Shown piece after piece: positions 7,315-64,000 of a stretch of DNA of 64,000 nt. Below the pieces are notes generated by a model. That model was not told where the DNA came from, ran no database searches, and worked only from the letters and a program-made list of their open reading frames with translations. How positions within the stretch are numbered: position 1 is the stretch's first letter; each line of letters starts with the position of its first letter. The DNA comes from Simplicispira suum (GTDB taxonomy: Bacteria > Pseudomonadota > Gammaproteobacteria > Burkholderiales > Burkholderiaceae_C). Position numbers and translations under genes: made by a program. The stretch is from the NCBI RefSeq assembly GCF_003008595.1, contig NZ_CP027669.1, positions 1,922,001-1,986,000 on the forward strand, written 5' to 3'.

Positions 7315-8484
7315 TCAGAAAGCCGGCAGCCCAAGGAGCGCCGCCGCCTGCAACGCCGTGCTGTGCGCTGCAGCCGCACTGGCCGCTGTCACATTCAGGT
7401 GCCCCATTTTGCGGCCGTGGCGCGCCTGCTCTTTGCCATAGAGGTGCAAATGCGTCCCTGGCAAGGCCAGCACCTGCGTCCACGCAGGCTCCTGCTGCGT
7501 CTCGCCGCCTGCAAACCACAAGTCTCCCAGCAGGTTGAGCATGATGGCTGCGCTGTGCTGGTGCGGCGGCGTCAGCGGCAAACCAGCGAGCGTGCGTACC
7601 TGCAGCTCGAACTGCGAAACGTCGCAGGCGTCCACGCTGTAGTGGCCGCTGTTGTGCGGGCGTGGGGCGATTTCGTTCACAACGAGGCGTCCGTCCTCCA
7701 GAACAAAGAATTCGACGCACAGCACGCCGATGTACTGCAATTCGTCCGCTATTGATTTTGCAGCTGCCAGCGCTTGCTGCATAAGCGCTAGAGGCATATT
7801 TTCTTCATAAACTTCGGTCACCGCCAGAATCCCGTCCCGGTGCAGATTGCGCTGCAGTGGCAGGTGCACACAGGCCCCATCCGCGCCGCGCGCGACGATC
7901 ACCGAGCATTCCAGCGCCAGGTGCAGCCGCTGTTCCAGCACGCAGGGAGCGCGGCCCATGGCGTCCCAGGCGGTGGTCAGTTCGGCGGGCGTCTGCACGC
8001 GAGCCTGGCCCTTGCCGTCGTAGCCCATGCGGGAGGTTTTCAGGATGCCCGGAAAAAGCGACGGGTCGGCGCTGGCCAGTTGCTCGGGCGTCTCGATCAC
8101 CGTGTACGGCGCGCAGGGCACGCCGCAGGCGGTGAAATGGGCCTTCTCCTCGGCCCGGTTCTGCGCCACGGCCACGGCGCGGGCTGCGGGCGAGACGGTG
8201 CACTGGCCGGCCAGCGCCGCCAGCGCCACAGCGGGCACGTTTTCAAACTCGGTGGTGACGGCGGCGCACAGGCCCGCCAGTTGGCGCAGGCCGTCGGGGT
8301 CGTCGTAGGCGCTCTGGATGTGGTGGTGGCTGACGCGCCCCGCCGGGCTGGCCGGGTCCGGGTCGAGCACGGCAGTGAAGTAGCCCATGGCCTGCGCCGC
8401 GTGCACGAACATGCGGCCCAGCTGGCCGCCGCCCAGCACGCCCAGCGTGGCGCCAGGCAGGATGGGGAGCATGCCCGCGCTCAT
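7315..8484 (-). CDS. purK: 5-(carboxyamino)imidazole ribonucleotide synthase
   Basis: 389 aa ATP-grasp enzyme converting AIR, ATP and bicarbonate to N5-CAIR in purine synthesis. It starts with GVLGGGQLGRMF; ATP-grasp elements include AVTTEFENVP, the KTSRMGYDGKGQ lysine loop and VCVEFFVLEDGRLVVNEIAPRPHNSGHY-type metal-binding residues. The start overlaps the purE stop as ATGA. Residues about 226-246 (YEENMPLALMQQALAAAKSI) are encoded by a copy of the dispersed repeat R1, at a place where the family normally has an unrelated helix of similar length. Confidence 0.95.
   Translation of the reverse strand: MSAGMLPILPGATLGVLGGGQLGRMFVHAAQAMGYFTAVLDPDPASPAGRVSHHHIQSAYDDPDGLRQLAGLCAAVTTEFENVPAVALAALAGQCTVSPAARAVAVAQNRAEEKAHFTACGVPCAPYTVIETPEQLASADPSLFPGILKTSRMGYDGKGQARVQTPAELTTAWDAMGRAPCVLEQRLHLALECSVIVARGADGACVHLPLQRNLHRDGILAVTEVYEENMPLALMQQALAAAKSIADELQYIGVLCVEFFVLEDGRLVVNEIAPRPHNSGHYSVDACDVSQFELQVRTLAGLPLTPPHQHSAAIMLNLLGDLWFAGGETQQEPAWTQVLALPGTHLHLYGKEQARHGRKMGHLNVTAASAAAAHSTALQAAALLGLPAF
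7747..7812 (+). repeat. R1 dispersed palindromic repeat, copy inside purK
   Basis: Core CAGCTGCCAGCGCTTGCTGC followed by ATAAGCGCTAGAGGC. Bases 7768-7795 match the intergenic copy at 58915-58942 at 26 of 28 positions, and similarity extends into both flanks. The palindrome is AGCGCTT...AAGCGCT. Here the element is coding, read on the minus strand in the purK frame. Confidence 0.8.
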
Positions 8485-8972
8485 TCGGGCGGCAGCCGCA
8501 TGGCGCGCGCTGCCTCGGTCTGCGCCTTGCGAAAGACGCGCAGCTGCTCGCGCAGCGCCGGATTGTGGTTGGCCAGCATGGCCACGGCAAACAGCGCGGC
8601 GTTGGCCGCGCCCGCCGCGCCAATGGCAAAGGTGGCTACCGGAACGCCCTTGGGCATCTGCACGATGCTGTGCAGCGAATCAACGCCCTGCAGGTGGCGG
8701 CTGGGCACCGGCACGCCCAGCACCGGCACAGGCGTCTTGGCGGCCAGCATGCCCGGCAGGTGCGCCGCACCGCCCGCGCCGGCAATGATGGCTTGCAGGC
8801 CGCGCCCGGCTGCGGCCTCGGCGTAGGCGAACATGTCGTCGGGCATGCGGTGGGCTGAAACCACCTGCGCCTCGTAGGCGATCCCGAATTGACTGAGAAT
8901 CTCGACTGCATGTTGCATGGTGTCCCAGTCGCTGCTGGAACCCATGACGACGCCGATCTGAAGGCTTGTCAT
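8481..8972 (-). CDS. purE: 5-(carboxyamino)imidazole ribonucleotide mutase
   Basis: 163 aa class I PurE, converting N5-CAIR to CAIR. Diagnostic motifs are MGSSSDWDTM at residues 10-19, SAHRMPD around the catalytic His, and AGAGGAAHLPGM. First gene of purE-purK-tsaC on the minus strand. Divergent from cnoX; the 102-bp gap 8973-9074 must carry promoters for both directions. Confidence 0.97.
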   Translation of the reverse strand: MTSLQIGVVMGSSSDWDTMQHAVEILSQFGIAYEAQVVSAHRMPDDMFAYAEAAAGRGLQAIIAGAGGAAHLPGMLAAKTPVPVLGVPVPSRHLQGVDSLHSIVQMPKGVPVATFAIGAAGAANAALFAVAMLANHNPALREQLRVFRKAQTEAARAMRLPPE

Positions 8973-9074
8973 AGTGTCTTGAGGCGCAGTACCTGCGGGT
9001 CTGCGCTAGAGTGAACCCGCAATTTTACTTTTGGGGCGGCGTGCCCGCCCCACCGCCCTTGGAAAACGATTCCC

Positions 9075-10043
9075 ATGATCGATGTAACCCTAGTCAATTT
9101 TGAAGCCGAAGTCATCACCGCCTCGCTCCGTGTCCCGGTGTTGGTGGACGTCTGGGCCGAGTGGTGCGGTCCCTGCAAACAGCTCGGGCCGCAGCTGGAG
9201 CTGCTGGAGACCGAATACGCCGGCCGCTTTGTTTTGGCCAAGCTCGACGCCGACAAGGTGCCCGAGATTGCGGGCCAGTTGTCGCAAATGTTCGGCACGC
9301 GCAGCATTCCGCTGTGCGTTTTGTTCGTGCAGGGCCAGCCGGTGGACGGTTTTGTCGGCGCACTGCCGCCCGCGCAACTGCGCGCCTTTCTCGACAAGCA
9401 CGTCCCATCCGAGGCTTCGCTCGAAGCCGAGGCCGAAGTCGATGAGGCCCATGCATTGCTCGACGCGGGCGACACCCAGGCGGCACTGGTCAAGATGGCG
9501 GACGCCCTGGCGGCAGACCCCGCCAACGACGACGCCCGTTTTGACTACGTGCGCCTGTTGATCGGCACTGGCGCCTATGAAGAAGCACAGGCGCTTTTGC
9601 ATGAGCCGCTGGCGCGCATTCCGCGTCCGCTGCGTTTTGAGGCCCTGTCCCACTGGCTGGGCGCCCTGCAGTTTGTGCAGCAGGACGATCGCGGCAACTG
9701 GCCCCTGGAGCAGTTCGACGCGCTGATTGCGCAGAACAAGCGCGATTTCGACACCCGCTTTGCCAAGGCGCGCGTGCTGATGGCCGAGGGGCAATGGACC
9801 GCCTCCATGGACGAGTTGCTGGAGATCATCATGCGCGACAAGGCTTGGGACGATGGCGCGGCGCGCAAGACGTTTGTCGCCATCCTGGAGCTGCTCACGC
9901 CCCCGAAGCCCAAGGCAGACGCCGGCGTTCCTGGCAAGAGCGCTGGCGGCATCGAGCTGATGGGCAAGGCGGGTGCGCAGGAAGACGAAGCCACCACGCT
10001 GCTGAACAGCTACCGGCGCAAGCTCAGCATGGCGCTGAACTGA
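9075..10043 (+). CDS. cnoX: thioredoxin-like co-chaperone with TPR domain (CnoX/YbbN)
   Basis: 322 aa cytoplasmic protein. The N-terminal thioredoxin fold (residues 1-110) has VDVWAEWCGPCKQLGPQ with both redox cysteines (WCGPC), unlike E. coli YbbN, which lacks the canonical pair. A helical TPR region covers residues about 115-300. The family is a holdase that protects clients from oxidation and hands them to GroEL or DnaK. It stands alone, divergent from purE and convergent with purC. Confidence 0.88.
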   Translation: MIDVTLVNFEAEVITASLRVPVLVDVWAEWCGPCKQLGPQLELLETEYAGRFVLAKLDADKVPEIAGQLSQMFGTRSIPLCVLFVQGQPVDGFVGALPPAQLRAFLDKHVPSEASLEAEAEVDEAHALLDAGDTQAALVKMADALAADPANDDARFDYVRLLIGTGAYEEAQALLHEPLARIPRPLRFEALSHWLGALQFVQQDDRGNWPLEQFDALIAQNKRDFDTRFAKARVLMAEGQWTASMDELLEIIMRDKAWDDGAARKTFVAILELLTPPKPKADAGVPGKSAGGIELMGKAGAQEDEATTLLNSYRRKLSMALN

Positions 10044-10052
10044 ATGCAGCGA

Positions 10053-10127
10053 TTCGAATGCTATTGAAAAAATAGCTGCTAGCGCTTATGGGGTAAGCGC
10101 TATAGCGCTATTTCTTCAGATATTTCG
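10053..10127 (+). repeat. R1 dispersed repeat between convergent genes cnoX and purC
   Basis: GAATGCTATTGAAAAAATAG, then CTGCTAGCGCTTATGGGGTA and AGCGCTATAGCGCTATTTC. The core AGCGCTTA-TGGGG-TAAGCGCT is a perfect 8-bp stem. It fills the whole gap after cnoX and its far end supplies the purC stop codon. It could act as a transcript-end structure for both genes, although no clear T-run follows. Confidence 0.8.
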
Positions 10128-11045
10128 ACCGGTCAGACGTTCCAGCGCTTCCCGGTATTTGGCGGCGGTGTTGTCAATCACGGCCTGCGGCAGGCGCGGC
10201 GCGGGCGGGGTTTTGTCCCAGGGCTTGCCGCCCACCTGCGCCTGCTCCAGCCAGTCGCGCACAAACTGCTTGTCGTAGCTGGGCGGATTCTCGCCAGCGG
10301 CCAGCGCGGCCTCGTAGCCTTCCACCGGCCAGTAGCGTGAGCTGTCGGGTGTGAGCACCTCGTCCATCAGCACCAGCGTGCCGTCGGGAGCGAGGCCGAA
10401 TTCGAACTTGGTGTCGGCAATGATCATGCCCTTCTCCAGCGCGATGGCTGCCGCCGCCTGGTACAGCGCCATGCTGATATCGCGGATGCGCCCTGCGTGC
10501 TCGGCGCCAATCATCTCCACGGTACGCTCAAAGCGGATGTTCTCGTCGTGCTCGCCCGCCGCCGCCTTGGCCGCCGGTGTGTAGATCGGGGACGGCAGGC
10601 GCGCGGCGTTGGTCAGGCCGGCGGGCAGGGCGACGCCACAGACTGATTGCGTCGCCTGGTATTCCTTCCAACCGCTGCCGGCCAGATACCCGCGCACCAC
10701 AGCCTCCACGGGCAGCGGTTTCAGGCGCTGCACCAGCATGGATCGGCCACGTACCTGGGCCACTTCGTCTGCGCTCACCACGCTCTCGGGCGTTTGACCC
10801 GTCAAGTGGTTGGGGCAAATGTGGCCGAGCTTGTCGAACCAGAACAATGCCATCTGCGTCAGCAGCTCGCCCTTGCCGGGAATGGGCTCGCCCATGATCA
10901 CGTCAAAGGCTGAGAGGCGGTCGCTGGCCACCATCAGGATGCGGTCGTCGCCGACGGCATAGTTGTCACGCACCTTGCCGCGCGCCAGCAAGGGCAACGA
11001 AGCGAGCGTGGAGGTGTGCAGGGCAGGGCTGGCGATGGCAGTCAT
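10116..11045 (-). CDS. purC: phosphoribosylaminoimidazole-succinocarboxamide synthase
   Basis: 309 aa SAICAR synthetase of the long, yeast Ade1-like type. It ligates aspartate to CAIR with ATP. Motifs: [20 protein letters not shown] near the N-terminus, [19 protein letters not shown], and [20 protein letters not shown] followed by DSSRYW. The ATG at 11045 is chosen because homology starts just after it. It completes a purine cluster with purE and purK 2 kb away. The last codons (GRNI-stop) overlap an R1 repeat. Confidence 0.95.
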
Positions 11046-11405
11046 GGGCGAGGGTCTGGCGAGGAAGAGGTGGCGGAAGGGGGGTGGAGCGCGCACTGGC
11101 GCCTGGCAGGGGCCGGCCCAAAAAAGAGTGGGCAGGATATGGCGATTTTATGCGTCGACCGGTGGGCAGTGGTCCAGGCGGACGGCACGGCAGTTGGGGG
11201 GGCGCCACCCCAAGCCAGCTATTGTGCGCCGTTTGGCGCACTGGCGCGAGTGCTGCCCGAGAACCCCGCCGCAGGCCTCTGGAATGCCATTGCTTTGCGC
11301 TGGGGCCGCGCGCATAGTGGCTTCGTCGCGACTTCAATCAGGTTTCGAGCCACCCTTCTGCCAGGAGGCGTGGCGTTCTTCCCCAGAGCCCCAGGAGGTT
11401 TCTTT
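11046..11405. other. 360-bp intergenic region upstream of purC and hpf
   Basis: The gap separates the divergent purC and hpf genes and should hold both promoters. A strong ribosome site, AGGAGG at 11393-11398, serves hpf. I found no convincing -35/-10 pair, sigma-54 -24/-12 motif, riboswitch or small gene. In many betaproteobacteria rpoN precedes hpf; it is not here. Confidence 0.4.
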
Positions 11406-11753
11406 ATGAATTTGACAATCAGCGGTCACCACCTCGAAATCACGCCCGCATTGCGCAGCTATGTCACCAACAAGCTCGATCGCATCACGCGGCACTTTGA
11501 CCAGGTGGTGGACGTCAAGGTGTTGATGTCGGTCGAAAAACAAAAGGAGAAGGAAAGACGACAGCGCGCGGAATGCACCATCCGCGTCAAGGGCAATGAT
11601 TTGTTTGCAGAGAGCGCACACGAAGATCTGTATGCGGCGGTGGATGACTTGGTAGACAAGCTCGATCGCCAGGTCGTGCGCCACAAGGACCGTTTGCAAG
11701 ACCACCATTTCGCCGCGCGTCGGCGCGAGCAGCCGGCGCAGATGTCGGCTTGA
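11406..11753 (+). CDS. hpf: ribosome hibernation-promoting factor, short form
   Basis: 115 aa S30AE/YfiA-type protein starting [20 protein letters not shown], with the [20 protein letters not shown] strand and [20 protein letters not shown] helix. It lacks the long C-terminal dimerisation domain, so it is the short type that binds the 30S A/P sites in stationary phase. The ATG follows AGGAGG with 7-nt spacing. It heads the hpf-ptsN-hprK cluster, but a terminator lies between hpf and ptsN. Confidence 0.93.
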
Positions 11754-11790
11754 TGCACATTTGGCGCCGTGCCCAGCAGGCGCCAGACCA

Positions 11791-11815
11791 AGCCGCCCCT
11801 CGGGTGGCTTTTTTT
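11791..11815 (+). terminator. rho-independent terminator after hpf
   Basis: AGCCGCCC-CTC-GGGTGGCT, an 8-bp stem with one G-T pair, directly followed by six T. It sits 38 nt after the hpf stop and suggests that hpf can be expressed separately from ptsN-hprK. Confidence 0.85.
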
Positions 11816-11877
11816 GTGGCTTTTCCGCGCCTATGGGGTTGCTCACGTGGGCGGTGCATAATTCCTCCCGACACGCC

Positions 11878-16497: not shown

Positions 16498-19263
16498 ATG
16501 GACACCAAATACCAACCCTCCGACGTCGAGCGCGCCGCGCAGGCGCACTGGAGCGCGAACGACGCTTACCGCGTGATCGAAGACGCGAGCAAAAAGAAGT
16601 TCTACGCCTGCTCCATGCTGCCCTACCCCAGTGGCAAGCTGCACATGGGCCATGTGCGCAACTACACCATCAACGACATGCTCACGCGCTACCTGCGCAT
16701 GAATGGCTACAACGTGCTCATGCCCATGGGCTGGGACGCCTTTGGCCTACCGGCAGAGAACGCGGCCATGAAAAACGGCGTGCCGCCCGCGCAGTGGACG
16801 CTGGACAACATCGCCTACATGAAGCAGCAGATGCAGGCTATGGGCCTGGCCATCGACTGGAGCCGCGAAGTGGCTACCTGCGACCCAACGTACTACAAGT
16901 GGAATCAGTGGCTCTTTCTGAAGATGCTGGAAAAGGGCGTCGCCTACCGCAAGACCCAGACCGTCAACTGGGACCCGGTGGACCAGACCGTGCTGGCCAA
17001 CGAGCAGGTGATCGACGGCAAGGGCTGGCGCACGGGCGCGGTGGTGGAAAAGCGCGAGATCCCCGGCTATTACCTGAAGATCACCGAATACGCCGATGAA
17101 CTGCTCGACTTCGTCGCCGGCGACAAGCTTCCCGGCTGGCCGGACCGCGTCAAGCTGATGCAGGAGAACTGGATTGGCAAGAGCGAGGGCGTGCGCTTTG
17201 CTTTCCCGCACGCCATTCGCGGCGAGGGCGGTGAGCTGATCGGTGGTGGCCGCATGTACGTGTTCACCACCCGGGCGGACACCATCATGGGCGTCACCTT
17301 CTGCGCGGTGGCCCCCGAGCATCCGCTGGCTGCGCATGCGGCGCAGAACAACCCGCAGCTGGCGGCCTTTATCGAAGACTGCAAAAGCGGCGGAACCACC
17401 GAAGCCGAACTGGCCACGCAGGAGAAAAAGGGCATGCGCACCGGCCTGGTCGTGCAGCACCCACTGACGCGAAAACCGGTGGATCTGTGGGTCGGCAACT
17501 ACGTGCTCATGGGCTACGGCGACGGCGCGGTGATGGGCGTGCCGGCGCACGACGAGCGTGATTTTGCCTTCGCGCTGAAGTACGGTCTGGAAATCAAGCA
17601 GGTGGTGCTGGTCGACGGGGAAACCTACGATTTCCACCGCTGGCAGGACTGGTACGCCGACAAGCAGCGCGGCGTCACGGTCAATTCCGACAACTTCAGC
17701 GGCCTGAGCTACAAGGACGCTGTCGACGCGGTGGCGCACGCTCTGGTGCAAAAAGACCTGGGCGCCAAAAAGACCACCTGGCGCCTGCGCGACTGGGGCA
17801 TCTCGCGCCAGCGCTATTGGGGAACGCCCATTCCCATCATCCATTGCGATGAGCACGGTGCGGTCCCGGTGCCGGAGCAGGACCTGCCCGTGGTGCTGCC
17901 GCGCGACTGCATTCCCGACGGCTCGGGCAACCCGCTGCACAAGCACGAGGGTTTTCACGCCGGGGTGACCTGTCCTGTCTGTGGCAAAGCGGCGCGGCGC
18001 GAAACCGACACCATGGACACCTTCGTGGACAGCTCCTGGTACTTCATGCGCTACTGCGACCCGAAGAACGGCGATGCCATGGTGGCGAACGGCGCCGACT
18101 ACTGGATGCCGATGGACCAGTACATCGGCGGTATTGAGCACGCCATCCTGCACCTGTTGTACGCGCGCTTCTGGACCAAGGTCATGCGCGATCTGGGGTT
18201 GGTCAAAGTCGACGAACCCTTCACCAAGCTGCTGACCCAGGGCATGGTGCTCAACCACATCTACTCGCATCGCACCGACAAGGGCGGCAAGGAGTATTTC
18301 TGGCCTCACGACGTCGAACATGTGCTCGATGACGACGGCAAGGTCATCGGCGCCCGGCTGATCAAGGCCGTGGGTGATCTGCCCGTGGGCACGGCCATTG
18401 ACTACGAGGGCGTGGGCACCATGTCCAAGTCCAAGAACAACGGCGTTGATCCGCAGGACCTCATTGAAAAATACGGCGCCGACACCGCCCGCCTCTACAC
18501 CATGTTCACGGCGCCGCCCGAGGCCACACTGGAATGGAACGACGCGGCCGTCGAAGGCAGCTACCGCTTCCTGCGCCGGGTGTGGAATTTCGGCATGAAG
18601 TTGTCTACTATGGATATCGAAGCTGCCAGCGTAATAGCAACAAGCGCTAGAGGCCTAAAAGATATCAAATTTGGCGATGAAGCCCAGGCCCTGCGTCGCG
18701 AGATCCACACCGTGCTCAAGCAGGTGGATTACGACTACCAGCGCATGCAGTACAACACCGTGGTCTCGGGCGCGATGAAGATGATCAACGCCCTGGAGAG
18801 CTTTGCCCCCACGCTCGACACGTGTGTGTCCTCGCTGCCCCCCGAGGGGGCCCTCGCGGCTAGGGGCGGCCCGTCGCCGCTCGACTTTAAGGCGAGCGAC
18901 TCCGCTGGCGGTCAGGTGGCGCTGGTGGAAGGCTTTGGCATTCTGCTGCGCTGCCTCTACCCGGCCACGCCGCACATCGCGCATGGCCTTTGGAGTCAGC
19001 TTGGCTATGCCGGCGTACTGGGTGATCTGCTGGACGCCCCCTGGCCACAAGTCGATCCGGCGGCACTGGTGCAAAGTGAAGTGGAACTGGTGCTGCAAGT
19101 CAACGGCAAACTGCGCGGCAGTGTGCGCGTGCCGGCAAAGGCCGACAAGGCCGAGATTGAGCGCCTGGCGCTGGCAAGCGACGCCTTTGTCGCGCATTCC
19201 GGCGGCGCCCATCCGAAGCGGGTGGTGGTGGTGCCGGGCCGTTTGGTCAACGTAGTGGTCTGA
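16498..19263 (+). CDS. leuS: leucyl-tRNA synthetase with two extra peptide segments
   Basis: 921 aa class I synthetase, about 60 residues longer than the 860-aa E. coli enzyme. HIGH motif [16 protein letters not shown] motif TMSKSKNNG, and the CP1 editing domain in between are intact. Two unusual segments lie in the C-terminal anticodon-binding part: residues about 703-725, encoded by an R1 repeat, and about 778-805 ([20 protein letters not shown]), GC-rich and repeat-like. Both keep the frame. The enzyme must be functional since it is essential, so the insertions are presumably surface loops. The R2 repeat follows the stop. Confidence 0.96.
18605..18672 (+). repeat. R1 repeat copy inside leuS
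   Basis: Contains AGCTGCCAGCGTAATAGCAA followed by CAAGCGCTAGAGGCCTAAAA. It shares GCTGCCAGCG with the purK copy and AAGCGCTAG(A/C)GGCCTAAAA with the intergenic copy at 49728. The left palindrome arm is decayed. It is read in frame as [20 protein letters not shown]. Confidence 0.75.
18829..18890 (+). repeat. GC-rich repeat-like insertion in leuS
   Basis: CTGCCCCCCGAGGGGGCCCT followed by CGCGGCTAGGGGCGGCCCGT. A CCCCC/GGGGG inverted repeat opens it. It encodes a Pro/Gly/Ala-rich loop absent from typical LeuRS. It resembles GC-rich intergenic elements in style but is not a copy of R2. Confidence 0.45.
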
Positions 19264-22551: not shown

Positions 22552-23832
22552 ATGAACGCTCTTAACGTCACCGAATACGTCCAGACGCTGGGTTTGCAGG
22601 CAAAAGTGGCTTCAGCGCTTATGGCATCAGCGTCAGCAGCTATCAAAAATGTTGCGCTCAGAAGCTTGGCCAGCCAGTTGCGTGCGCAGGCGCCGCAGCT
22701 GAAAGAGGCCAATTCCCTCGATTTGGCGCGTGCTCGCGCCGCCGGCCTGGCCGAGCCCATGGTGGATCGCCTGAAATTGACCGACCAAGTGCTGGAAACC
22801 TGTGCGCAGGGCTGCGAGCAGCTCGCTGCCATGCCAGACGTCATTGGCGAAATTGTGGGGATGAACCAACAGCCCAGCGGCATCCGCGTGGGCCGCATGC
22901 GCGTACCGATTGGCGTCTTCGGCATGATTTACGAGAGCCGGCCCAACGTCACCATCGAGGCAGCGAGTCTGGCCATCAAAAGCGGCAACGCAGCGATCCT
23001 GCGCGGTGGCTCCGAGGCCATCGAGTCCAACCGGGCGCTGGCGCTGCTGGTGCAGCAGGCGCTGCAGGCCGCCGGCCTGCCGCAGGACGCGGTGCAACTG
23101 GTGCAGACCACCGACCGCGAAGCCGTGGGCCAGCTCATTGCCATGCCAGCGTTTGTGGACGTGATCATCCCGCGCGGTGGCAAGGGGCTGATCGAGCGCA
23201 TCAGTGCCGGCGCAAAGGTGCCGGTGATCAAGCACCTGGACGGCAACTGCCACAGCTACGTCGACGATCCTTGCGACCTCGATATGGCGCTGCGCGTGGT
23301 GGACAACGCCAAGACGCAGAAGTACAGCCCCTGCAACGCAAGCGAAAGCCTGCTGGTGGCCCGCGCGGTGGCGCCGGAGTTTTTGCCGCGCATCGGCGCC
23401 GTCTTCGCGAAAAAACAGGTCGAAATGCGGGTTTGCGCTGAATCCATGGCGTTGTTAGCTCCTATTTCAGGAGCAAAACTGGTCCCCGCCACCGAGCAGG
23501 ACTGGGCCGAGGAATACCTGGCGCCGGTCATCAGCATCAAGGTGGTGGCAGGTGTGGACGAGGCCATCGCCCACATCAACCGCTATTCAAGCCACCACAC
23601 CGACGCCATCCTCACGCGCGACCACCTGCATGCCCAGCAGTTTTTGCGTGAGGTCGATTCGGCCAGCGTCATGGTGAACGCCAGCACGCGGTTTGCCGAC
23701 GGCTTCGAGTACGGCCTGGGCGCGGAAATCGGCATCAGCACCGACAAATTCCACGCCCGCGGCCCGGTGGGCATCGAAGGCTTGACCTCGCTCAAATGGG
23801 TGGTCTTGGGCCAGGGCGAGGTGCGCGGCTGA
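22552..23832 (+). CDS. proA: glutamate-5-semialdehyde dehydrogenase
   Basis: 426 aa. It reduces gamma-glutamyl phosphate in proline synthesis. [33 protein letters not shown] and the catalytic-Cys region [10 protein letters not shown] are intact. Two stretches coincide with repeat-like DNA: residues 17-35 (R1) and about 302-310 ([10 protein letters not shown], an R1-related tail). The family has a conserved helix of similar length at the first site. The ATG at 22552 fits the start of homology. Confidence 0.96.
22602..22655 (-). repeat. R1 repeat-like segment inside proA
   Basis: TGGCTTCAGCGCTTATGGCA followed by TCAGCGTCAGCAGCTATCAA. In reverse orientation it matches the R1 pattern (CTAGCGCTTAT..CATCA.GCG, then AGCTATC) over about 45 bases. 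It is in the proA frame, encoding [15 protein letters not shown]. Because ProA has a conserved Ala-rich helix here, part of the match could be convergence. Confidence 0.55.
23453..23481 (+). repeat. short R1-associated motif in proA
   Basis: TTAGCTCCTATTTCAGGAGC followed by AAAACTG, an inverted repeat GCTCCT/AGGAGC. The same string with few changes (TAGCTC.CTTTTCAGGAGC, then AAAA) ends the R1-like copy at 46636-46692. Coding here. Confidence 0.45.
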
Positions 23833-41300: not shown

Positions 41301-42215
41301 TCAACCAAGCCGTTTGATCAGGCTTGACGTGTCCCAGCGCTGGCCACCCATGGCCTGTACATCGGCGTAGAACTGGTCCACCAGCGCCGTGACGGGAATG
41401 CGCGCGCCGTTGCGTCGAGCTTCCTGCAGGACCAGGCCCAGGTCCTTGCGCATCCAGTCGACGGCAAAGCCGAAGTCGAATTTGCCCGAGACCATGGTTT
41501 GCCCCCGGTTGTCGAGCTGCCAGCTTTGCGCCGCGCCTTTGCCGATCACGTCCAGCACTTGCGGCATGTCCAAGCCCGCGCGCTGGCCGAAGGCAATGGC
41601 TTCGGCCAAGCCTTGCACCAGGCCTGCAATACAGATCTGGTTGACCATCTTCGTCAGTTGGCCGGCACCGGCCTCGCCCATGCGGGTGAAGGCGCGTGCA
41701 AAGGCCGTGGCGACGGGCTGCACCGCGTCGAACGCCGCCTGGTCGCCACCGCACATTACGGTGAGTTGGCCGTTTTGCGCGCCGGCCTCCCCGCCCGAGA
41801 CGGGCGCATCGACAAACGACAAACCCAGCGTCCGCGCAGCACCGTGCAGTTCACGGGCGACTTCCGCTGATGCGGTGGTGTGGTCTATGAACACGGCGCC
41901 CGGCTCCATGCCGGCAAACGCACCATCGGCGCCCAGGGTGACTGCCCGTACGTCATCGTCGTTGCCAACACAGCAGAACACCAACGAGGCACCGCGTGCC
42001 GCCTCGCGCGGAGATTGAGCATGTTTTTGGCCTCCAGCACCTGCGTAGTCTGCGCACCAAGCTATCGCTTTGGAAGCAGTTCGGTTGTACACCGTGACCG
42101 TATGCCCGGCCTGGGCCAAGTGGCCCGCCATGGGATAGCCCATGACGCCCAGACCAAGAAAGGCGACGTTCTGTGGTGTGACAGGTTCGTAGGTGCGGGA
42201 CGCTGGATGGGACAT
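41301..42215 (-). CDS. beta-hydroxyacid dehydrogenase, 3-hydroxyisobutyrate type
   Basis: 304 aa. NAD(P)-binding FLGLGVMGYPMAGHLAQAGH, substrate motif FVDAPVSGGEAGAQNG, and catalytic Lys in GQLTKMVNQ. Likely substrates are 3-hydroxyisobutyrate, tartronate semialdehyde or succinic semialdehyde; no neighbour tells which. The ATG at 42215 lies about 15 residues before the Rossmann fold. Confidence 0.87.
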   Translation of the reverse strand: MSHPASRTYEPVTPQNVAFLGLGVMGYPMAGHLAQAGHTVTVYNRTASKAIAWCADYAGAGGQKHAQSPREAARGASLVFCCVGNDDDVRAVTLGADGAFAGMEPGAVFIDHTTASAEVARELHGAARTLGLSFVDAPVSGGEAGAQNGQLTVMCGGDQAAFDAVQPVATAFARAFTRMGEAGAGQLTKMVNQICIAGLVQGLAEAIAFGQRAGLDMPQVLDVIGKGAAQSWQLDNRGQTMVSGKFDFGFAVDWMRKDLGLVLQEARRNGARIPVTALVDQFYADVQAMGGQRWDTSSLIKRLG

Positions 42216-46635: not shown

Positions 46636-46692
46636 AAATGCTATCTGGCGCTTATCCAATAAGGGTAAATAGCTCACTTTTCAGGAGCAAAA
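46636..46692 (-). repeat. partial R1 repeat upstream of aminotransferase gene
   Basis: TGGCGCTTATCCAATAAGGG followed by TAAATAGCTCACTTTTCAGG and AGCAAAA. It matches the R1 pattern in reverse orientation with a weakened second arm; its tail repeats the motif found in proA at 23453. It occupies the gap between DUF3617 and the aminotransferase gene; the other 180 bp are featureless. Confidence 0.55.
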
Positions 46693-46800
46693 GCGCTCGC
46701 TGGTGCCGGGCCGTCGGTGGCAACGCCGTGCTAAGCTGAAATGCTTCATCGGGGCCGCCGGTCTGTGTGGCGCGCTCCACCCCCTCTCGGAGAACACGCC

Positions 46801-49714: not shown

Positions 49715-49727
49715 GGCGAAAGAGAAC

Positions 49728-49793
49728 TCTCTTATTTATAGCTGCTAACGCCCGTGGAATAAGCGCTAGCGGCCTAAAACACTTGGATTTTAC
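49728..49793 (+). repeat. R1 repeat between convergent DUF445 and ThDP-enzyme genes
   Basis: CTCTTATTTATAGCTGCTAA, CGCCCGTGGAATAAGCGCTA, GCGGCCTAAAACACTTGGAT. It lies in the gap and its far end reaches the stop codon of the minus-strand gene, the same arrangement as at 10053-10127. Confidence 0.75.
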
Positions 49794-51481
49794 TTGCCCC
49801 GAATCTGGCTCAGCGACCGCCCCGGCGTGATCGCCTCCGGGTCGATCAGGCAGTGCACCAGGGCGGGCAGGCGCGTGGCCGCTGCGGCCTCGCGCAGGCG
49901 TGCAAAAGCCGGGGCGAACTCTTCGGTGTGTGCCACGCGCGCGCCGTGGCCGCCAAAGGCTTTGGCGTAGGCGGCGAAGTCGGGGTTCTGTAGCTGCGTG
50001 CCGCTCACGCGGTGCGGGTATTCGCGCTCCTGGTGCATGCGGATCGTGCCGTACATGCCGTTGTCCAGCAGCACCACGAGGAGGGGCAGCCGGTACTGCA
50101 CGGCGGTGGCGAACTCCTGGCCGTGCATGAGGAAGTCGCCATCGCCTGCGAACACCACCACCGTGCGCTCGGGCCACAGGCGCAGTGCGCCTACCCCGGC
50201 CGGTAGCCCGTAGCCCATGCTGCCGCTGGTGGGTGCGAGCTGCGTGCCGAATTGGCGGAACGGCCAGAAGCGGTGCACCCAGGTGGCGAAGTTGCCCGCG
50301 CCGTTGCAAAAGACGGTATCGGGCGGCAGCACTTCGCGCAGGTGCTGCATCACTGCGCCCATCTGCAGATTGCCGGGAATGTGGATCGGCGCCGGGTCGC
50401 TCCAGGCCTGGTAGGCGGCGTGGGCCTCGTGCACGGCCTGCTGGCGCTGCGCGCTGGGCGCCTGCGCCGCCGTGGTCGGCAGGGCGGCGCAGAAGGCGGC
50501 GGGCGATGCGTTGATGGGCCACTGCGCCTGGTACACGCGGCCCAGCTCGTCCGGGTCGGGGTAGACATGCACCAGCGGGATCTGCGGCGTGGGAATGTCC
50601 AGCAGGGTGTAGCCCTGCGAGGGCACCTCTGAAAGCCGACCGCCCACAAGCAGCAGCAGGTCGGCCGCGCGGATGCGCGCCAGCAGCGCCGGGTTCACGC
50701 CCAGGCCCAGGTCGCCCGCATAGCAGGGGTGCTGGTGGTCGAACAGCATCTGGCGCCGGAACGAGCAGGCCACGGGCAGGGCGTGAGCGGCGGCGAAGTC
50801 CTGGAAGCGCGCCACGGCCTGGGCACTCCAGCGGCTGCCTCCGACGATGGCCATGGGCCTGCGGGCCTGGTCAAGCCGTTCGAGCAACTGCGCCATCTGC
50901 GCCGGGCCCGGTGCCGCTTCCATGGTTTGGTAGCTGCGCGCGGTGGGCGCGTCGACGCATTCGGCCAGCATGTCTTCTGGCAGCGCCACCACCACCGGGC
51001 CAGGGCGCCCGCTGCAGGCCAGGCTGAAGGCGCGCGCGACGATCTCGGGCAGGCGGCGCGCGTCGTCCACCTCGGTGGCCCACTTGGCCAGCGGGCCAAA
51101 GGCGGCGCGGTAGTCCACTTCCTGGAAGGCCTCGCGCCCGCGCGCGCCGCGCGCGATCTGGCCGACGAACAGCACCAGCGGTGTGGAGTCCTGCATGGCG
51201 ATGTGCACGCCCGCCGCCGCGTTGGTGGCGCCGGGGCCGCGCGTGACGAAGCACACGCCGGGCCGTCCGGTGAGCTTGCCGTGTGCCTCGGCCATCATGG
51301 CCGCGCCACCTTCCTGGCGGCAGACGGTCAGGGCGATGGGGGCATCGTGCAGCGCATCCAGCACGGCCAGATAGCTCTCGCCAGGGACGCAGAAGATGTG
51401 CTGCACGCCGTGCAGCACGAGCTGGGCGACCAGGATCTGGCCGCCGGTGCGCAGCGGGGAGAGGGTGGTTTCAGATGACAT
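49790..51481 (-). CDS. thiamine-diphosphate enzyme, acetolactate synthase-like
   Basis: 563 aa. N-terminal PYR domain with the conserved Glu in CRQEGGAAMMAEAHG, a central domain, and the ThDP-binding GDGDFLMHGQEF...LLDNG motif. It resembles IlvB-like decarboxylases but has no regulatory partner gene. The adjacent aldehyde dehydrogenase 24 nt upstream suggests one pathway, e.g. degradation of a 2-oxo acid. The product is not determined. Confidence 0.83.
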   Translation of the reverse strand: MSSETTLSPLRTGGQILVAQLVLHGVQHIFCVPGESYLAVLDALHDAPIALTVCRQEGGAAMMAEAHGKLTGRPGVCFVTRGPGATNAAAGVHIAMQDSTPLVLFVGQIARGARGREAFQEVDYRAAFGPLAKWATEVDDARRLPEIVARAFSLACSGRPGPVVVALPEDMLAECVDAPTARSYQTMEAAPGPAQMAQLLERLDQARRPMAIVGGSRWSAQAVARFQDFAAAHALPVACSFRRQMLFDHQHPCYAGDLGLGVNPALLARIRAADLLLLVGGRLSEVPSQGYTLLDIPTPQIPLVHVYPDPDELGRVYQAQWPINASPAAFCAALPTTAAQAPSAQRQQAVHEAHAAYQAWSDPAPIHIPGNLQMGAVMQHLREVLPPDTVFCNGAGNFATWVHRFWPFRQFGTQLAPTSGSMGYGLPAGVGALRLWPERTVVVFAGDGDFLMHGQEFATAVQYRLPLLVVLLDNGMYGTIRMHQEREYPHRVSGTQLQNPDFAAYAKAFGGHGARVAHTEEFAPAFARLREAAAATRLPALVHCLIDPEAITPGRSLSQIRGK

Positions 51482-58810: not shown

Positions 58811-58890
58811 GGCTGCACTGTAGCCAAGCGCGCGCGCCCTGGTGTGAAGATTGTTTCAGCCTTGCGTGAATTGCGTTGGGCAGAACCAAT

Positions 58891-58960
58891 GAATACTATT
58901 AAAAAGATAGCTGTCAGCGCTTGATGGATAAGCGCTAGAGGCCAATTTAACTTGAATTTT
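58891..58960 (+). repeat. R1 dispersed repeat upstream of glcD
   Basis: GAATACTATTAAAAAGATAG, CTGTCAGCGCTTGATGGATA, AGCGCTAGAGGCCAATTTAA, CTTGAATTT. Best-preserved intergenic copy: 26 of 28 bases equal to the purK-internal copy. It lies in the 243-bp gap between the LysR stop and glcD start. Confidence 0.82.
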
Positions 58961-59053
58961 TTCCATCTACACGCCTCCTTTGGTTGCCGTGGGCACGTCC
59001 AGCTGGCGCGGCCCAGGCCGGTGGCGCAGCCACCCCGTGGGATGATCCTGCCA

Positions 59054-59950
59054 CTACACCATGCTCTTGTGCAGCCAGTCGGCAAAGGCCGCGCATTCCC
59101 AGCGGTCCATGGCGCCGGTGCGCCAGCACAGGTAGTGGGCGTGCGGGCTGGGCGCGTCCAGGTCGAACAAGCGCACCAGCGTGCCGTTCTCCACCCAGGG
59201 CGCGCCGAGCTTGAGGCGCACGAGGGCCACGCCCATGCCGGCGGCGGCGGCGTCGCACATCAGGCCGACGTCGTTGAACTGTGAGCCGTCGCGCGGTTCC
59301 TGCCAGGGCAGGCCCGCCGCGGCAAACCAGCTGCGCCAGGGCTCCAGCGGGCTGCGCAGCAGCGTGCTCGGGTCGAGTTCTTCCGGACGCTCAAACGGCC
59401 CGTGCTCGCGCAGCCAGGCGGGGGAGGCCAGCGGCGTCACGATGTCGCGCACGATTTCGCTGTACTCCACGTCGGCGTAGTGGCCGGTGCCAAAGCGCAC
59501 CACCAGATCGGCGTCCTCCGCCACCACGTCCATGAGGGGAATGGAGATCTGCAGTGCCAGGTCGATCTCGGGGTAGGCCTCGCGGAAATGGCGCAGCCGG
59601 GGAATCAGGATCACCCGCGCGAAGGTGGGGGTGACGGCAAGTTTGAGGCGGCGTTTGCCGGGCGCACCGGCCAGACCGGGAAAGCGCTGCAGCGCGCCCA
59701 GGCCCTCGCGCACGTTGGCCAGGTAGGCAATGCCGTCGGTGGTGAGCGAAAAATCGGCCCGGCCGAACAGGCGCGTGCCGATGATCTGCTCCAGCTGCTT
59801 GACGCGGTGGCTGACCGCGCTGGGCGTGACGCAGAGTTCATCGGCCGTCAGCGTCACGCTGCGCAGGCGCGCCAGGGCTTCAAAGGTCAGCAGGCACTGG
59901 ATGGGAGGGATGCGCCGCAGCGGCCCAGAAGCTTCGGCAGGCGAAATCAT
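59054..59950 (-). CDS. LysR family transcriptional regulator (GcvA-like)
   Basis: 298 aa. HTH: LLTFEALARLRSVTLTADEL, CVTPSAVSHRVKQLEQIIG; the effector domain resembles GcvA. Transcribed in the same direction as glcD-lrgAB, with an R1 repeat in between. A role in their control is possible. It follows purU by 24 nt. Confidence 0.88.
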   Translation of the reverse strand: MISPAEASGPLRRIPPIQCLLTFEALARLRSVTLTADELCVTPSAVSHRVKQLEQIIGTRLFGRADFSLTTDGIAYLANVREGLGALQRFPGLAGAPGKRRLKLAVTPTFARVILIPRLRHFREAYPEIDLALQISIPLMDVVAEDADLVVRFGTGHYADVEYSEIVRDIVTPLASPAWLREHGPFERPEELDPSTLLRSPLEPWRSWFAAAGLPWQEPRDGSQFNDVGLMCDAAAAGMGVALVRLKLGAPWVENGTLVRLFDLDAPSPHAHYLCWRTGAMDRWECAAFADWLHKSMV

Positions 59951-59974
59951 GCGGTGGCGCCCCTTGGGTGGTAC

Positions 59975-60823
59975 TTATCGAAAAATCACCGTCTTGTGCC
60001 CGTTTTGCAGCACGCGGTGCTCGCTGTGCCACTTGACCGCGCGCGCCAGCACCTGGCTTTCGGTATCGCGGCCACGGGCCGTCAGGTCCTCGACGGTATC
60101 GGTGTGATCGGCACGTGTAACATCTTGTTCGATTATCGGGCCTTCGTCCAGATCGGCAGTGACGTAGTGCGCGGTGGCACCAATCAGTTTGACTCCACGA
60201 TCATGCGCCTGGTAGTAGGGCTTGGCGCCCTTGAAGCTGGGCAAAAAGCTGTGATGGATATTGATGGCGCGGCCGGCAAGGCGCTGGCACATGCCGTTGG
60301 AGAGCACTTGCATGTAGCGCGCCAGAACCACCAGTTCGGCGCCCTCCTGCTCAATGATCTCCAACTGGCGCGCTTCGGCCTGGGCCTTGGTCGCCGCAGT
60401 GACAGGAATATGGTGAAACGGAATGTTGTAGCCGGCGGCGAGCTGGTAGAAATCGCGGTGGTTGCTGATGATGGCGCGGATGTCGATCGGCAGCAGGCCC
60501 GACTTCCAGCGAAACAGCAGATCGTTGAGGCAGTGGCCTTCGCGGCTGACCAGGATGGCGGTGCGCATGGGTTCGTGCGTGGCGTGCAGGCCCCATTGCA
60601 TCTGGTGCGGCTCGGCGAATTGGGCGAGGCGTGCTTTCAGTTCAGTGGGGTCGTGCGCGTCGCATGCAAATTGCACGCGCATGAAGAACAGGCCGGTGGC
60701 GGGGTCGTTGAACTGGGCGGCTTCTTCGATGTTGCCGCCTTGTTCAAGCAAAAAACCCGAGAGGGCATGCACCAGACCCTTGCGGTCGGGGCATGAAAGG
60801 GTTAATACATGTACTTGGCTCAT
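59975..60823 (-). CDS. purU: formyltetrahydrofolate deformylase
   Basis: 282 aa. An ACT domain (MSQVHVLTLSCPDRKGLVHA) precedes the formyl-transferase fold with NIHHSFLPSFKGAKPYYQAH and the catalytic Asp region. It hydrolyses 10-formyl-THF to formate and THF, balancing one-carbon units. Divergent from the EAL protein gene. Confidence 0.95.
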   Translation of the reverse strand: MSQVHVLTLSCPDRKGLVHALSGFLLEQGGNIEEAAQFNDPATGLFFMRVQFACDAHDPTELKARLAQFAEPHQMQWGLHATHEPMRTAILVSREGHCLNDLLFRWKSGLLPIDIRAIISNHRDFYQLAAGYNIPFHHIPVTAATKAQAEARQLEIIEQEGAELVVLARYMQVLSNGMCQRLAGRAINIHHSFLPSFKGAKPYYQAHDRGVKLIGATAHYVTADLDEGPIIEQDVTRADHTDTVEDLTARGRDTESQVLARAVKWHSEHRVLQNGHKTVIFR

Positions 60824-60863
60824 AGAAGCGAATTGTCGCAGCAGCCTGATCGGGTAGGTCCGC

Positions 60864-63536
60864 ATGAACACCAGTAAATGGTTTCGCCAGTCAGGGATGC
60901 CGACACCCGGCGTGGCTGCGGGGCTGTATCTCGCGTTGGGCTGTGCCTGGGTATTTCTGGGGGACTGGTTGCTGGCCGCGTTGATCACGGACGCCGCGCA
61001 ACTCGCACGCTGGCAGTTGTGGAAGGGCTGGACGTATGTTGCCTTGACCGCCGTGCTGGCCGCTTGGTTGGTGTACCGATTTCGCGATGCCGAGCGCAAG
61101 CGCAGATTGCGCGAGGATGAATTTTCTCAGGTGGTGCGTTACGCAAGTGCAGGCATTGCGCGCGTGCGAATTGGTGGCCAGATTCTGTGGGCCAACCCGC
61201 GGCTGCTGGAGATGCTGAATGTGGGCGAGAGCGATCTGCCCAACCTGAACTGGCGCAGCTTTGTGCCATCGGCCAACTCGGCCGAGATTGCCGAGCAGCT
61301 CAAGCGCCTGCTGGCGGGCGAAATTGACCATTACGTGGGCGAGCGCCAGTGCCTGCGGGCGGGTGGCCTGGAGCCGCTGCCGGTGCTGTGCACCGTCACA
61401 CGCGTTCGGGCGGGGGAAGATGCATCCGGCGATTCGCTGATCTGCGCGCTGCAGGATTTGAGCGGGACGGTGCAGGCGCGCGCCGCCCTTGAGCGCAGCG
61501 AAGCGCGGCTGCGACTGGCGTTAGAAGCCAGTGCCAGCGGGGTGTGGGACTGGGATGTGCGCGCGCGGGCCTTCAGCTTTTCGCCTGGCATCGCCCGCAT
61601 GCTGGCGTACCAGGGCACCGATCTCGCAAGCGAGCCCGATCTGATGGACCGCATCCTGCCAGAGGACCGAGAACGGGTACGCGCTGCGGCGCACTTCGTA
61701 CTCGGCGCAGGTGAGGTGCGGCTCGAGTCCTTCGGCATGCAGTGCTTTGACGGCCAGGTGCGCTGGTTCCAGGCGCGTGGGCACTGGTACGCCGGTGCGC
61801 AAGGCGAACCGGAGCGGGTCACAGGGTTGCTGACCGATATGAGTGACGCACGGTCTTCCGAGGAGCGCCAGCGGCTGGCTATGGCGGTGGTGGACAACGC
61901 CGCCCAGGGCGTGCTGGTCACCGATACGCAGGGCAACATCCGTTCCGCCAATGCGGCGGCGCTGCGCATTCTGGGCTACACCGAGGCCGAGGTGCTGGGC
62001 CGCAACCCGCGCATGTTCCAGTCTGGCCGCCAAGACCGCCAGTTTTACGCGGACTTGTGGGCGCAACTGCTGCGCACTGGACATTGGCAAGGCGAACTGT
62101 GGAACAAGCGCAAGAATGGCGAAATTTTTCCCGAGCAAGCGGCCATCAGCGCGGTGAGCGATGCGGGCGGCACCGTCACCCATTTCATCTGCATGTTCAC
62201 CGACCAGTCCCAGAGCCGGGCGCGCGAGCAGCAGGTCGAGTTTCTGGTCGGCCACGATCCGCTCACCGGCCTGGCCAACCGCGATAGCTTGGTCGTGGAA
62301 CTCGAAGCCATTCGCGAGCAGGCTAGGGCCAGCGGCGAGCATTTCGCCGTGCTGCAGCTGAACCTCGACCGGTTCAAGGAGGTGAACGAAAGCTATGGCC
62401 ACACCGTGGGCGACGCCGTCCTGCGCCACATCGCCGCGCAGGTGCAGCAGGCGCTGCGTCCGGGCGACCTGATTGCACGCCTCGCTGGCGACGAGATCGC
62501 CGTCGTTGCCCGCAACCTGCGCCATGCGGACGGCGCCGCCGCCGTTGCTCGCAAGCTGATGGAAGCGGCAGCCAGGCCTTGGTGTGCGCCTGAGGGCTTT
62601 GAAGTGGTGGTCAGAGCCAGCGTCGGCATCTGCATGTATCCGGACCATATGGCGTCCACCGAAGCCCTGCTGCAGGGCGCGCACTCGGCCGTCTATGGCG
62701 CCAAGGCGCTGGGGCGCGGCGCCTGGTGCTTCTACGACGAGGCCATGACGCAGGCTGCGCGCGAGCGCCTGACGCTGGAGGCCCGCCTGCGCCGTGCGCT
62801 GGCGGAGGGCGAGCTGCGGCTGTACTACCAGCCGCAGGTCGACATTGCCAGTGGCCGGATCGTTGGCGCCGAGGCTTTGCTGCGCTGGCAAGACCCGGAC
62901 GAGGGCCTCATTTCTCCCGATCGTTTCATTCCCGTGGCCGAGTCGTCGGGCCTGATCGCGCCCATCGGCCAGTGGGTACTTGAGGAGGCCTGCCGCCAGG
63001 CGCAGCAATGGCTCACGGCGGGGCTGCCAGCGCTGACCATGGCGGTCAACGTGTCGCCGCGCCAGTTTTTGTTGGGGGATCTTGTGGCGGGCGTCGGCCA
63101 GGCCTTGTCACAAAGCGGGTTCCCGGCCAACTTTTTGGAGCTTGAAATTACCGAAAGCGCCATGGCCGAGCGGCCCGAGCAGGCCTTGGCGCTGCTTAAC
63201 CGGCTGGGCGACCTGGGCCTGCGGCTGGCGGTGGACGACTTTGGCACCGGCTACTCATCGCTGGCGCACATCAAGCGGTTTCCCATCGACGTGCTCAAGA
63301 TCGACCAAGGCTTTGTGCGCGACATCCCCGAGAGCGCTGATGACATGGCGATTTGCTCTGCCATCATTGCCATGGGCCACAGCATGGGCTTTGCTGTTTT
63401 GGCCGAAGGCGTGGAAACGCCGGCCCAACTCGACTTTCTGCGGGAGCGCGGTTGCGACAACTACCAGGGCTATCTGCGCAGCCGACCGGTTCCGCCAGAC
63501 GCCTTTGAGGCGTTGCTGCGCGCTCAAAGCGTTTGA
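60864..63536 (+). CDS. membrane PAS/GGDEF/EAL protein, likely c-di-GMP phosphodiesterase
   Basis: 890 aa. Two N-terminal membrane segments (about 14-65), then three PAS-like segments (about 85-150, 205-330, 335-455), GGDEF domain (about 460-620) and EAL domain (about 640-885). The GGDEF site reads AGDEI (residues 541-545), so cyclase activity is doubtful. EAL residues are intact: EALLRW (Glu670), NVSPRQF, ELEITESA, DDFGTGYSS, KIDQGFV, AEGVET. Sensor for lowering c-di-GMP; pilT/pilU at 42-45 kb could be a downstream process, but this is inference. Confidence 0.9.
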   Translation: MNTSKWFRQSGMPTPGVAAGLYLALGCAWVFLGDWLLAALITDAAQLARWQLWKGWTYVALTAVLAAWLVYRFRDAERKRRLREDEFSQVVRYASAGIARVRIGGQILWANPRLLEMLNVGESDLPNLNWRSFVPSANSAEIAEQLKRLLAGEIDHYVGERQCLRAGGLEPLPVLCTVTRVRAGEDASGDSLICALQDLSGTVQARAALERSEARLRLALEASASGVWDWDVRARAFSFSPGIARMLAYQGTDLASEPDLMDRILPEDRERVRAAAHFVLGAGEVRLESFGMQCFDGQVRWFQARGHWYAGAQGEPERVTGLLTDMSDARSSEERQRLAMAVVDNAAQGVLVTDTQGNIRSANAAALRILGYTEAEVLGRNPRMFQSGRQDRQFYADLWAQLLRTGHWQGELWNKRKNGEIFPEQAAISAVSDAGGTVTHFICMFTDQSQSRAREQQVEFLVGHDPLTGLANRDSLVVELEAIREQARASGEHFAVLQLNLDRFKEVNESYGHTVGDAVLRHIAAQVQQALRPGDLIARLAGDEIAVVARNLRHADGAAAVARKLMEAAARPWCAPEGFEVVVRASVGICMYPDHMASTEALLQGAHSAVYGAKALGRGAWCFYDEAMTQAARERLTLEARLRRALAEGELRLYYQPQVDIASGRIVGAEALLRWQDPDEGLISPDRFIPVAESSGLIAPIGQWVLEEACRQAQQWLTAGLPALTMAVNVSPRQFLLGDLVAGVGQALSQSGFPANFLELEITESAMAERPEQALALLNRLGDLGLRLAVDDFGTGYSSLAHIKRFPIDVLKIDQGFVRDIPESADDMAICSAIIAMGHSMGFAVLAEGVETPAQLDFLRERGCDNYQGYLRSRPVPPDAFEALLRAQSV

Positions 63537-63548
63537 TCAGCTGCTGGG

Positions 63549-64000
63549 CTATTTGCGCAGCGGCGCGCAGGCGTCCTGCGGTGGCAGCTCAGCCGTCACG
63601 GGTGCCAGATCTGCTTCTATTTCAATAGCTGGTTGCGCTTTTCCTGATTGCGCTAGGACCACTTTTACTTCAAAATTTCTGGGTAAATATTGGGGTACGC
63701 CGCGGCTGCGCAGTACGTGGCCGGCGCCGGCAATCAGCAGCACGGTCTGGCCTGGAGCGCGCGGTGCTGCAGCCAGCGTGCGCGCCATGCTCCGGTCGCG
63801 CGCCATTTGGATGCGCACCATGCCCGGCAACTGCGCCTCAGGCAGCAAATCGCAATGGCCTTCGCGCACGGCCTGCAGTTGTGCGCTGTGCGCGGCCGGA
63901 GGCAAGGCGGCGTCCAGGGCTTCGTCCTGCATGGCGGTGCGCATGGCGGCGCGTGGCAAATTGCCGCCAAGCACAGGAACAGCGGCGCGCACGGCCGCCA
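63549..64000 (-). CDS. ChaN family lipoprotein-like protein, N-terminus outside window
   Basis: About 150 C-terminal codons. EGHCDLLPEAQLPGMVRIQM, RDRSMARTL and VLLIAGAGHVLRSRGVP match the ChaN/Tiki haem-binding fold. The frame is open to the right edge. An R1-like repeat is translated near the C-terminus (FEVKVVLAQSGKAQPAIE). Confidence 0.75.
   Translation of the reverse strand, partial: AAVRAAVPVLGGNLPRAAMRTAMQDEALDAALPPAAHSAQLQAVREGHCDLLPEAQLPGMVRIQMARDRSMARTLAAAPRAPGQTVLLIAGAGHVLRSRGVPQYLPRNFEVKVVLAQSGKAQPAIEIEADLAPVTAELPPQDACAPLRK
63617..63679 (+). repeat. R1 repeat copy inside the ChaN-like gene
   Basis: CTATTTCAATAGCTGGTTGC, GCTTTTCCTGATTGCGCTAG, GACCACTTTTACTTCAAAAT. It keeps ATAGCTG, GCGCTT, GCGCTAG..CC and TTTTACTT in the R1 spacing; palindrome arms partly decayed. 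Coding on the minus strand. Confidence 0.6.

Follow-up and report, generated by a model that had tools for sequence, protein, structure and literature searches.

The stretch analyzed here, 64,000 nucleotides of contig NZ_CP027669.1 from Simplicispira suum (hereafter the window), contains a short palindromic repeat, R1, which is dispersed through genes and the gaps between them. R1 is about 66 bp long, with a consensus GC content of about one-third. Its layout is modular: GCTAT and ATAGCTG, separated by seven free positions, are followed by GCGCTT and, 5–7 positions on, by AAGCGCTAGAGGCC, and then by AATTT and, about 11 bp further, AAATTT. A profile built from 35 copies locates nine non-overlapping R1 places in the window at a threshold of 14 bits, in line with the initial annotation, which had described about nine dispersed copies or fragments in fixed spacing. 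The reversed window gave no match above 8 bits, and the best match in 30 order-3 shuffles reached 9.1 bits. The identity of 26 of 28 bases reported there for 7768–7795 and 58915–58942 was reproduced on recomputation. A second, broader profile (R1b) includes the purK, proA, and leuS copies and is therefore biased toward them. Genes and gene contexts were called with our own open reading frame scorer; together with domain matches, it places copies in purK, leuS, proA, and a ChaN-domain gene as well as between genes, as first annotated.

The purK gene (7315–8484, minus strand), whose product matches that of Simplicispira hankyongi at 93%, carries a copy antisense to its frame at 7748–7818 (plus strand; 51.7 bits). 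This copy lies in place without an indel, and alignments with the three best matches of solved structure are ungapped across the segment. A copy at 10059–10130 (plus strand; 53.3 bits) is situated between a convergent thioredoxin-TPR gene and purC, the domains of both genes having been matched. The leuS copy (18606–18676, plus strand; 42.7 bits) is read in the sense frame, and the same site is occupied in loci L225–L228. The region of proA encoding an N-terminal helix holds an antisense, in-place copy at 22596–22654 (minus strand; 27.4 bits with the first profile and 47.6 with the broader one). Further copies are found between convergent genes at 49726–49794 (plus strand; 51.3 bits) and between genes at 58894–58964 (plus strand), the latter being the best of the window at 66.4 bits. 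Antisense in the ChaN-domain gene (PF04187), which is cut by the window end, lies a copy at 63612–63681 (plus strand; 17.4 and 26.6 bits with the two profiles), for which orthologous R1 is present in L259, L262, L263, L264, and L267. A partial copy between genes covers model positions 2–47 (46644–46689, minus strand; 23.9 bits), and a marginal R1-like stretch occurs at 42011–42078 (minus strand; 14.5 and 19.7 bits) in a gene whose domains are of the 3-hydroxyisobutyrate dehydrogenase type. In addition, a second repeat pair at 23456–23497 and 46670–46711 (TAGCTCC..TTTCAGGAGCAAAA, family D19) resembles the left module of R1 alone. It carries the GCTCCTGAAATAGGAGC form, which is common in Rhodoferax-like R1 copies.

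R1 is abundant throughout the chromosome. The 4.15-Mb genome consists of a 3.92-Mb contig (C1) and two small contigs (C2 and C3), and a sequence-only model found at least 150 candidates in it, the best 150 all having E values of 2.5e-11 or below and all lying on C1. Sampling of 20 stretches of 20 kb from C1 (400 kb) yielded 52 places at 14 bits or more and none in the reversed control; the copies thus exceed chance. This corresponds to one copy per 7.7 kb and, by extrapolation, to about 500 per chromosome. The exact 14-mer AAGCGCTAGAGGCC occurs 58 times genome-wide and is absent from the reversed control. Among the best 150 genome copies, 78 lie on the plus and 72 on the minus strand (binomial p 0.68), so that the strand bias raised as a possibility by the initial annotation is not seen. 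They are spaced nearly at random (coefficient of variation 0.99) and display no terminus pattern. No Rfam family reaches its gathering score at R1 in the window, and R1 appears undescribed in the literature searched by sequence letters, where the only matches were papers with titles on yeast, human, or fish work, and by topic, a scope that did not extend to subscription papers and preprints.

Copies are mostly situated between genes. When 75 copies were assigned by context, 40 lay in tandem gaps, 19 in convergent gaps, 6 in divergent gaps, and 10 inside genes; 30 of the 75 came from the exact 14-mer search. An unbiased sample of 43 copies at 20 bits or more comprised 14 tandem, 13 convergent, and 3 divergent copies, 12 in genes, and 1 at an edge. 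R1 was found in 13 of 43 convergent gene pairs versus 3 of 46 divergent pairs (p 0.005).

One line of evidence for retention is the copy at 58894. R1 is present in the corresponding gap of all 13 genus genomes (out of 26) in which both neighboring genes lie in the fetched locus. In a comparison of alignment columns among 12 of these, with the near-copy G216 left out and the flank compared ungapped, pairwise mismatch was 0.00 in the AGCT module, 0.04 in ATTT, and 0.20 in AGGCC. It was higher in the loops (0.51 and 0.44), the second palindrome's left arm (0.40), and the 20 bp of 5' flank (0.68). Presence is thus conserved in orthologues, and the motif is kept while loops and flank diverge. Elsewhere, orthologous copies form clusters of up to 27 in regions chosen around known copies, two of the larger clusters mixing neighboring sites. 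Covariation of the hairpins did not exceed that of shuffles in two alignments, the first of which is biased by its exact seed. Because the palindromes lack covariation, the constraint on R1 looks like protein contacts on DNA rather than a folded RNA. Two side observations concern this locus. Upstream of the 58894 copy, at about 58840–58880 of the window and also in L259 and L263–L267, there is a further conserved inverted repeat (TTTATTGCAG..GTGAAA..GCTGCAA type), perhaps a terminator or a regulatory hairpin. In G215 (L258/L281), the contig has a run of N and a repeated flank at the 58894 site, which marks an assembly gap.

Copies inside protein genes reveal two modes of origin. In purK, 52 PurK sequences align without gaps at the R1 segment, whose third-position GC in the window gene is 0.29 versus 0.85 in the rest of the gene. 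R1-bearing lineages use AT-ending codons here, whereas R1-free lineages encode similar residues by GC-rich codons. Codon constraint alone therefore does not produce R1, which answers the objection that the initial annotation had raised against itself. Likewise, 30 ProA loci and the alignment to structure 4ghk are ungapped at the proA segment, which again has AT-ending codons within a GC-rich gene. The thioredoxin-TPR gene beside purK bears no R1 in the window, and eight relatives bear R1 in it. The 43 residues at this place are present in 8 of 8 R1-bearing and in 52 of 68 R1-free orthologues. TsaC of a Rhodoferax-like genome has no gap over the aligned part, which runs from mid-R1 onward, and 16 LeuS sequences are ungapped, with six additional residues relative to the more distant LeuRS 6q89. 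On the other hand, MoeA is longer by about 25 residues at R1 (a stretch found in 15 of 30 loci and missing from the other 15), TlyA by 12 to 14, a short-chain dehydrogenase/reductase (SDR) protein by 12, and an fdsB-like protein by 17. The gap at the 10059 site, where R1 also occurs in L045 and L046, measures 79 bp in these two; other close-neighbor thioredoxin-TPR/purC gaps range from 5 to 156 bp, with 5–20 bp in 6 of 16 without R1. The ungapped purK, proA, and thioredoxin-TPR segments, the lengthened proteins, and the larger 10059 spacer together mean that both in-place origin and insertion of R1 occur. The likeness to the coding palindromes of Rickettsia drawn in the initial annotation accordingly stands for the in-frame extra residues of moeA, tlyA, the SDR gene, and the fdsB-like gene, and does not stand for purK, proA, and thioredoxin-TPR.

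The distribution of R1 among genomes is nearly all-or-none. Within the genus, at least 150 copies are found in 22 of 26 genomes; the remaining four have 139 (G208), 4 (G203), and none (G201 and G206, the assembly of the latter being 84% complete). Within the family, matches occur in 67 of 200 genomes: 43 with at least 12 (36 of these with at least 25) and 24 with 1–9, leaving 133 with none. Only five of 200 genomes of the order match, namely the own genome, two of the same family, and two from other families, in which the matches are weak and number 2 and 1. Strong matches are thus limited, in the sets searched, to one GTDB family of Burkholderiales. Single exact 14-mer matches in 36 of 200 other genomes are near background, the reversed control giving one or two matches in about a dozen genomes, and only genomes with several matches were counted. 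Among 51 purK loci, R1 occurs elsewhere in the locus in 21 of 25 with an R1-like purK segment and in 0 of 26 without. On a purK tree computed with the segment excluded, the R1 state requires 11 parsimonious changes, at least six of them on well-supported branches, and the R1-free Giesbergeria anulus, Acidovorax sp. Root219, and Comamonas koreensis are placed among R1-bearing kin. Details of the motif vary by lineage; the dialect groups include orthologous sites, which colors the comparison. Separately, L119 (NZ_BMGY01000069.1), filed as Hymenobacter frigidus, has a Comamonadaceae-type purK close to Polaromonas and is probably an assembly contamination.

R1 is also missing from the foreign DNA sampled. 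Contigs C2 and C3 (237 kb) contain no copy, with about 31 expected at chromosomal density; C2 encodes the conjugative proteins TraC and TraI_2. L315 and L320, each a 20-kb stretch of an integrative conjugative element (ICE), are likewise free of R1, and together with L326 they are the three R1-free stretches among 21 further or low-copy stretches. A match on contig C3 of G220 was considered as a plasmid copy and rejected, the contig being 6 kb long and 98–99% identical to the chromosome; near-identical to chromosomal DNA, it is no counter-example to the absence of R1 from plasmids. As to its content, the ICE, at about 3.385–3.430 Mb of C1, encodes ParB-like, RepA, and ParA proteins, a relaxase (DUF3363), and Trb proteins, and carries a group II intron reverse transcriptase and metabolic cargo.

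The repeat family, its retention at orthologous sites, in-place coding copies, a near all-or-none distribution, and absence from the sampled foreign DNA are all observed. On these grounds R1 is probably a maintained chromosomal DNA signal rather than mobile debris. From them we infer a factor acting in trans, a drive, and a role in uptake. In this proposal, which we hold tentatively as a whole, R1 may be a maintained, dispersed signal kept up in trans and serving DNA uptake or self-recognition in natural transformation. A candidate surface receptor would favor R1-bearing DNA, and recombination of such DNA would maintain and spread R1 in the shared chromosome and not in plasmids or ICEs. Some new sites would originate in place within proteins, and others would come in as short insertions. 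Since related species have either the full complement of R1 or hardly any of it, its upkeep would have to depend on the factor acting in trans. Put more concretely, R1 could be a 66-bp composite self-recognition tag of Comamonadaceae with lineage dialects and receptor-biased spread. In many genera it would have changed codons of core enzymes and added peptides to them, and a lineage that loses the recognizing factor would lose the tag as well; we regard this as a possible rather than a secure description.

To our knowledge, uptake sequences are established only in Neisseriaceae and Pasteurellaceae. Verminephrobacter eiseniae has been described as taking up DNA in a sequence-specific and pilus-dependent manner, and no transformation by DNA of other Acidovorax species was detectable in the tested strains of Acidovorax; the part of this report available presents sequence-specific transformation in Verminephrobacter/Acidovorax without naming a signal (PMC4212676). 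R1 is a concrete, testable candidate for such a signal in this group, and R1-rich and R1-free sister species offer a phyletic switch for seeking the recognizing factor. Whatever its function, R1 is a motif that persists within the genes of enzymes across genera, a clear case of pressure at the DNA level that reshapes proteins.

Several findings weigh against an uptake signal. The consensus is relaxed: in 815 kb, the 14-mer occurs 7 times exactly, 25 times with one mismatch, and 33 times with two, and the best 9-mer occurs 36 times exactly and 128 times with a single mismatch (1 and 80 in the reversed control). Density is about one per 7.7 kb and not about one per kb. No receptor for R1 was found, and ComEC, found in 190 of 200 genomes of the family, fails to distinguish R1-rich from R1-free ones. 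The limits on interspecies transformation in Acidovorax could equally stem from poor recombination. L326 (16 kb), in which no foreign origin was recognized, also lacks R1, and among eight proteins compared with R1-free relatives, four are clearly longer at R1. Within coding copies, 20 of 23 non-independent comparisons show less synonymous change inside R1 than outside, the difference being only modest. Codon identity of the purK segment among R1-like lineages, chosen by low third-position GC, is 0.70 versus 0.65 for the rest, with 0.77 in the highest window, and the R1 residues of leuS change faster than the rest of the protein. Strong codon conservation in purK was considered as proof of selection and rejected, the effect being slight. 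Since these tests on coding copies are modest or weak, the claim of retention draws on the intergenic site, persistence across genera, and distribution.

The relaxed consensus and low density keep a chromosome-binding protein as a close rival. R1 would then be the binding site of a chromosome-organizing or other DNA-binding protein, with each site under weak selection, a reading that we consider somewhat less likely than uptake. Fixed spacing, free loops, and dyad-like half-sites without covariation would suit it, as would the excess of one-mismatch over exact 14-mers, restriction to the chromosome among the contigs searched, and the enrichment in convergent pairs. No terminus or strand pattern accompanies these features, no such binding protein was identified, and both the repeated near-complete loss in close species and the existence of several hundred sites under weak selection would be harder to account for in the absence of a drive. 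The extra residues that MoeA (15 of 30 loci), TlyA, the SDR protein, and the fdsB-like protein carry in frame, and the 79-bp gap with R1 in two relatives versus 5–20 bp in 6 of 16 without, would instead be expected of a mobile palindrome similar to those of Rickettsia or to miniature inverted-repeat transposable elements, inserted by some factor, tolerated in protein loops and gaps, and decaying. This explanation, toward which the initial annotation leaned, is improbable, and R1 is not simply such an element: copies lie in place without indels, sites are orthologous across species with the motif kept after flanks diverged, presence or absence between species is near complete, and R1 is absent from C2, C3, and the sampled ICE stretches.

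Two further explanations are considered very improbable. An element of the repetitive extragenic palindromic (REP) type, moved by a REP-associated tyrosine transposase (RAYT; Y1_Tnp), might be suspected from the single Y1_Tnp gene of the own genome and from the occurrence of Y1_Tnp in 38 of 43 R1-rich versus 109 of 157 other family genomes (Fisher p 0.012, uncorrected for kinship). Nevertheless, the near-complete R1-rich genomes G141, G095, and G196 have no Y1_Tnp match, and the 3.3 kb around the own Y1_Tnp gene hold no R1. As a separate matter, G015 has at least 20 Y1_Tnp matches, many identical, versus the usual 0–5 in the family genomes displayed, an IS200/IS605-like expansion. It is similarly doubtful in the extreme that R1 acts as RNA, in the form of a terminator, attenuator, or small RNA hairpin. 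The consensus folds into three hairpins and R1 is frequent near gene 3' ends, but copies occur in both orientations, many within coding frames, and neither the covariation test nor the Rfam search of the window described above supports an RNA.

Rickettsia palindromic elements (RPE) are palindromic repeats in coding frames and gaps that lengthen proteins by in-frame extra residues. R1 resembles them in its palindromes, its location in both coding frames and gaps, and the extra residues of some proteins; it differs in that it often occupies its place with no gain in protein length and is retained across genera. The host group, one family of Burkholderiales in the sets searched and not Rickettsiales, also sets the two apart. 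Within Comamonadaceae, and also in Bordetella, the repeat BRE is similarly short, mostly intergenic, and sometimes coding; it is about 90 bp long, has a GC content of 69% in Bordetella, often forms tandem arrays, and reaches at most 29 copies per genome (PMC3110155). By that description R1 is distinct, being about 66 bp long, AT-rich in consensus, dispersed, and present in several hundred copies per genome. REP/RAYT elements are also small palindromic repeats; no tie of R1 to a Y1_Tnp gene was found, and the available part of a survey of GTAG/CGTC REPs mentions none of the six names looked for (PMC3733652). The DNA uptake sequences (DUS) of Neisseriaceae share with R1 a bias to the core genome and absence from recently acquired DNA, and they are partly gained by recombination (PMC2397512). 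DUS are of about 10–12 bp with a strong consensus, whereas R1 is a composite of modules. The uptake signal sequences (USS) of Pasteurellaceae are genome-wide, on both strands, and mostly non-coding yet found in genes too, as R1 is. They arise in place without gaps inside proteins and combine a core with two AT-rich segments, the second centered 12 positions on, so that both systems have AT-rich segments at fixed spacing (PMC1626085). R1 is longer, about eight times rarer, and looser in consensus; of the proteins tested, half have additional length where R1 lies. Perfect copies of USS and DUS outnumber singly mismatched ones, a relaxed consensus being typical of regulatory binding sites (PMC1626085). 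R1 shares with both systems over-representation on both strands (52 places versus 0 in 400 kb; 78 and 72 copies per strand) and a core-chromosome bias with absence from recently acquired DNA (none in C2, C3, and the ICE stretches; L326, not recognized as foreign, has none either); it departs from them in having 7 exact and 25 singly mismatched core copies and far fewer than about one copy per kb. On account of these two traits, relaxed consensus and rarity, R1 is not filed as a USS or DUS, and yet, of the systems compared here, these are perhaps the ones whose behavior R1 most resembles.

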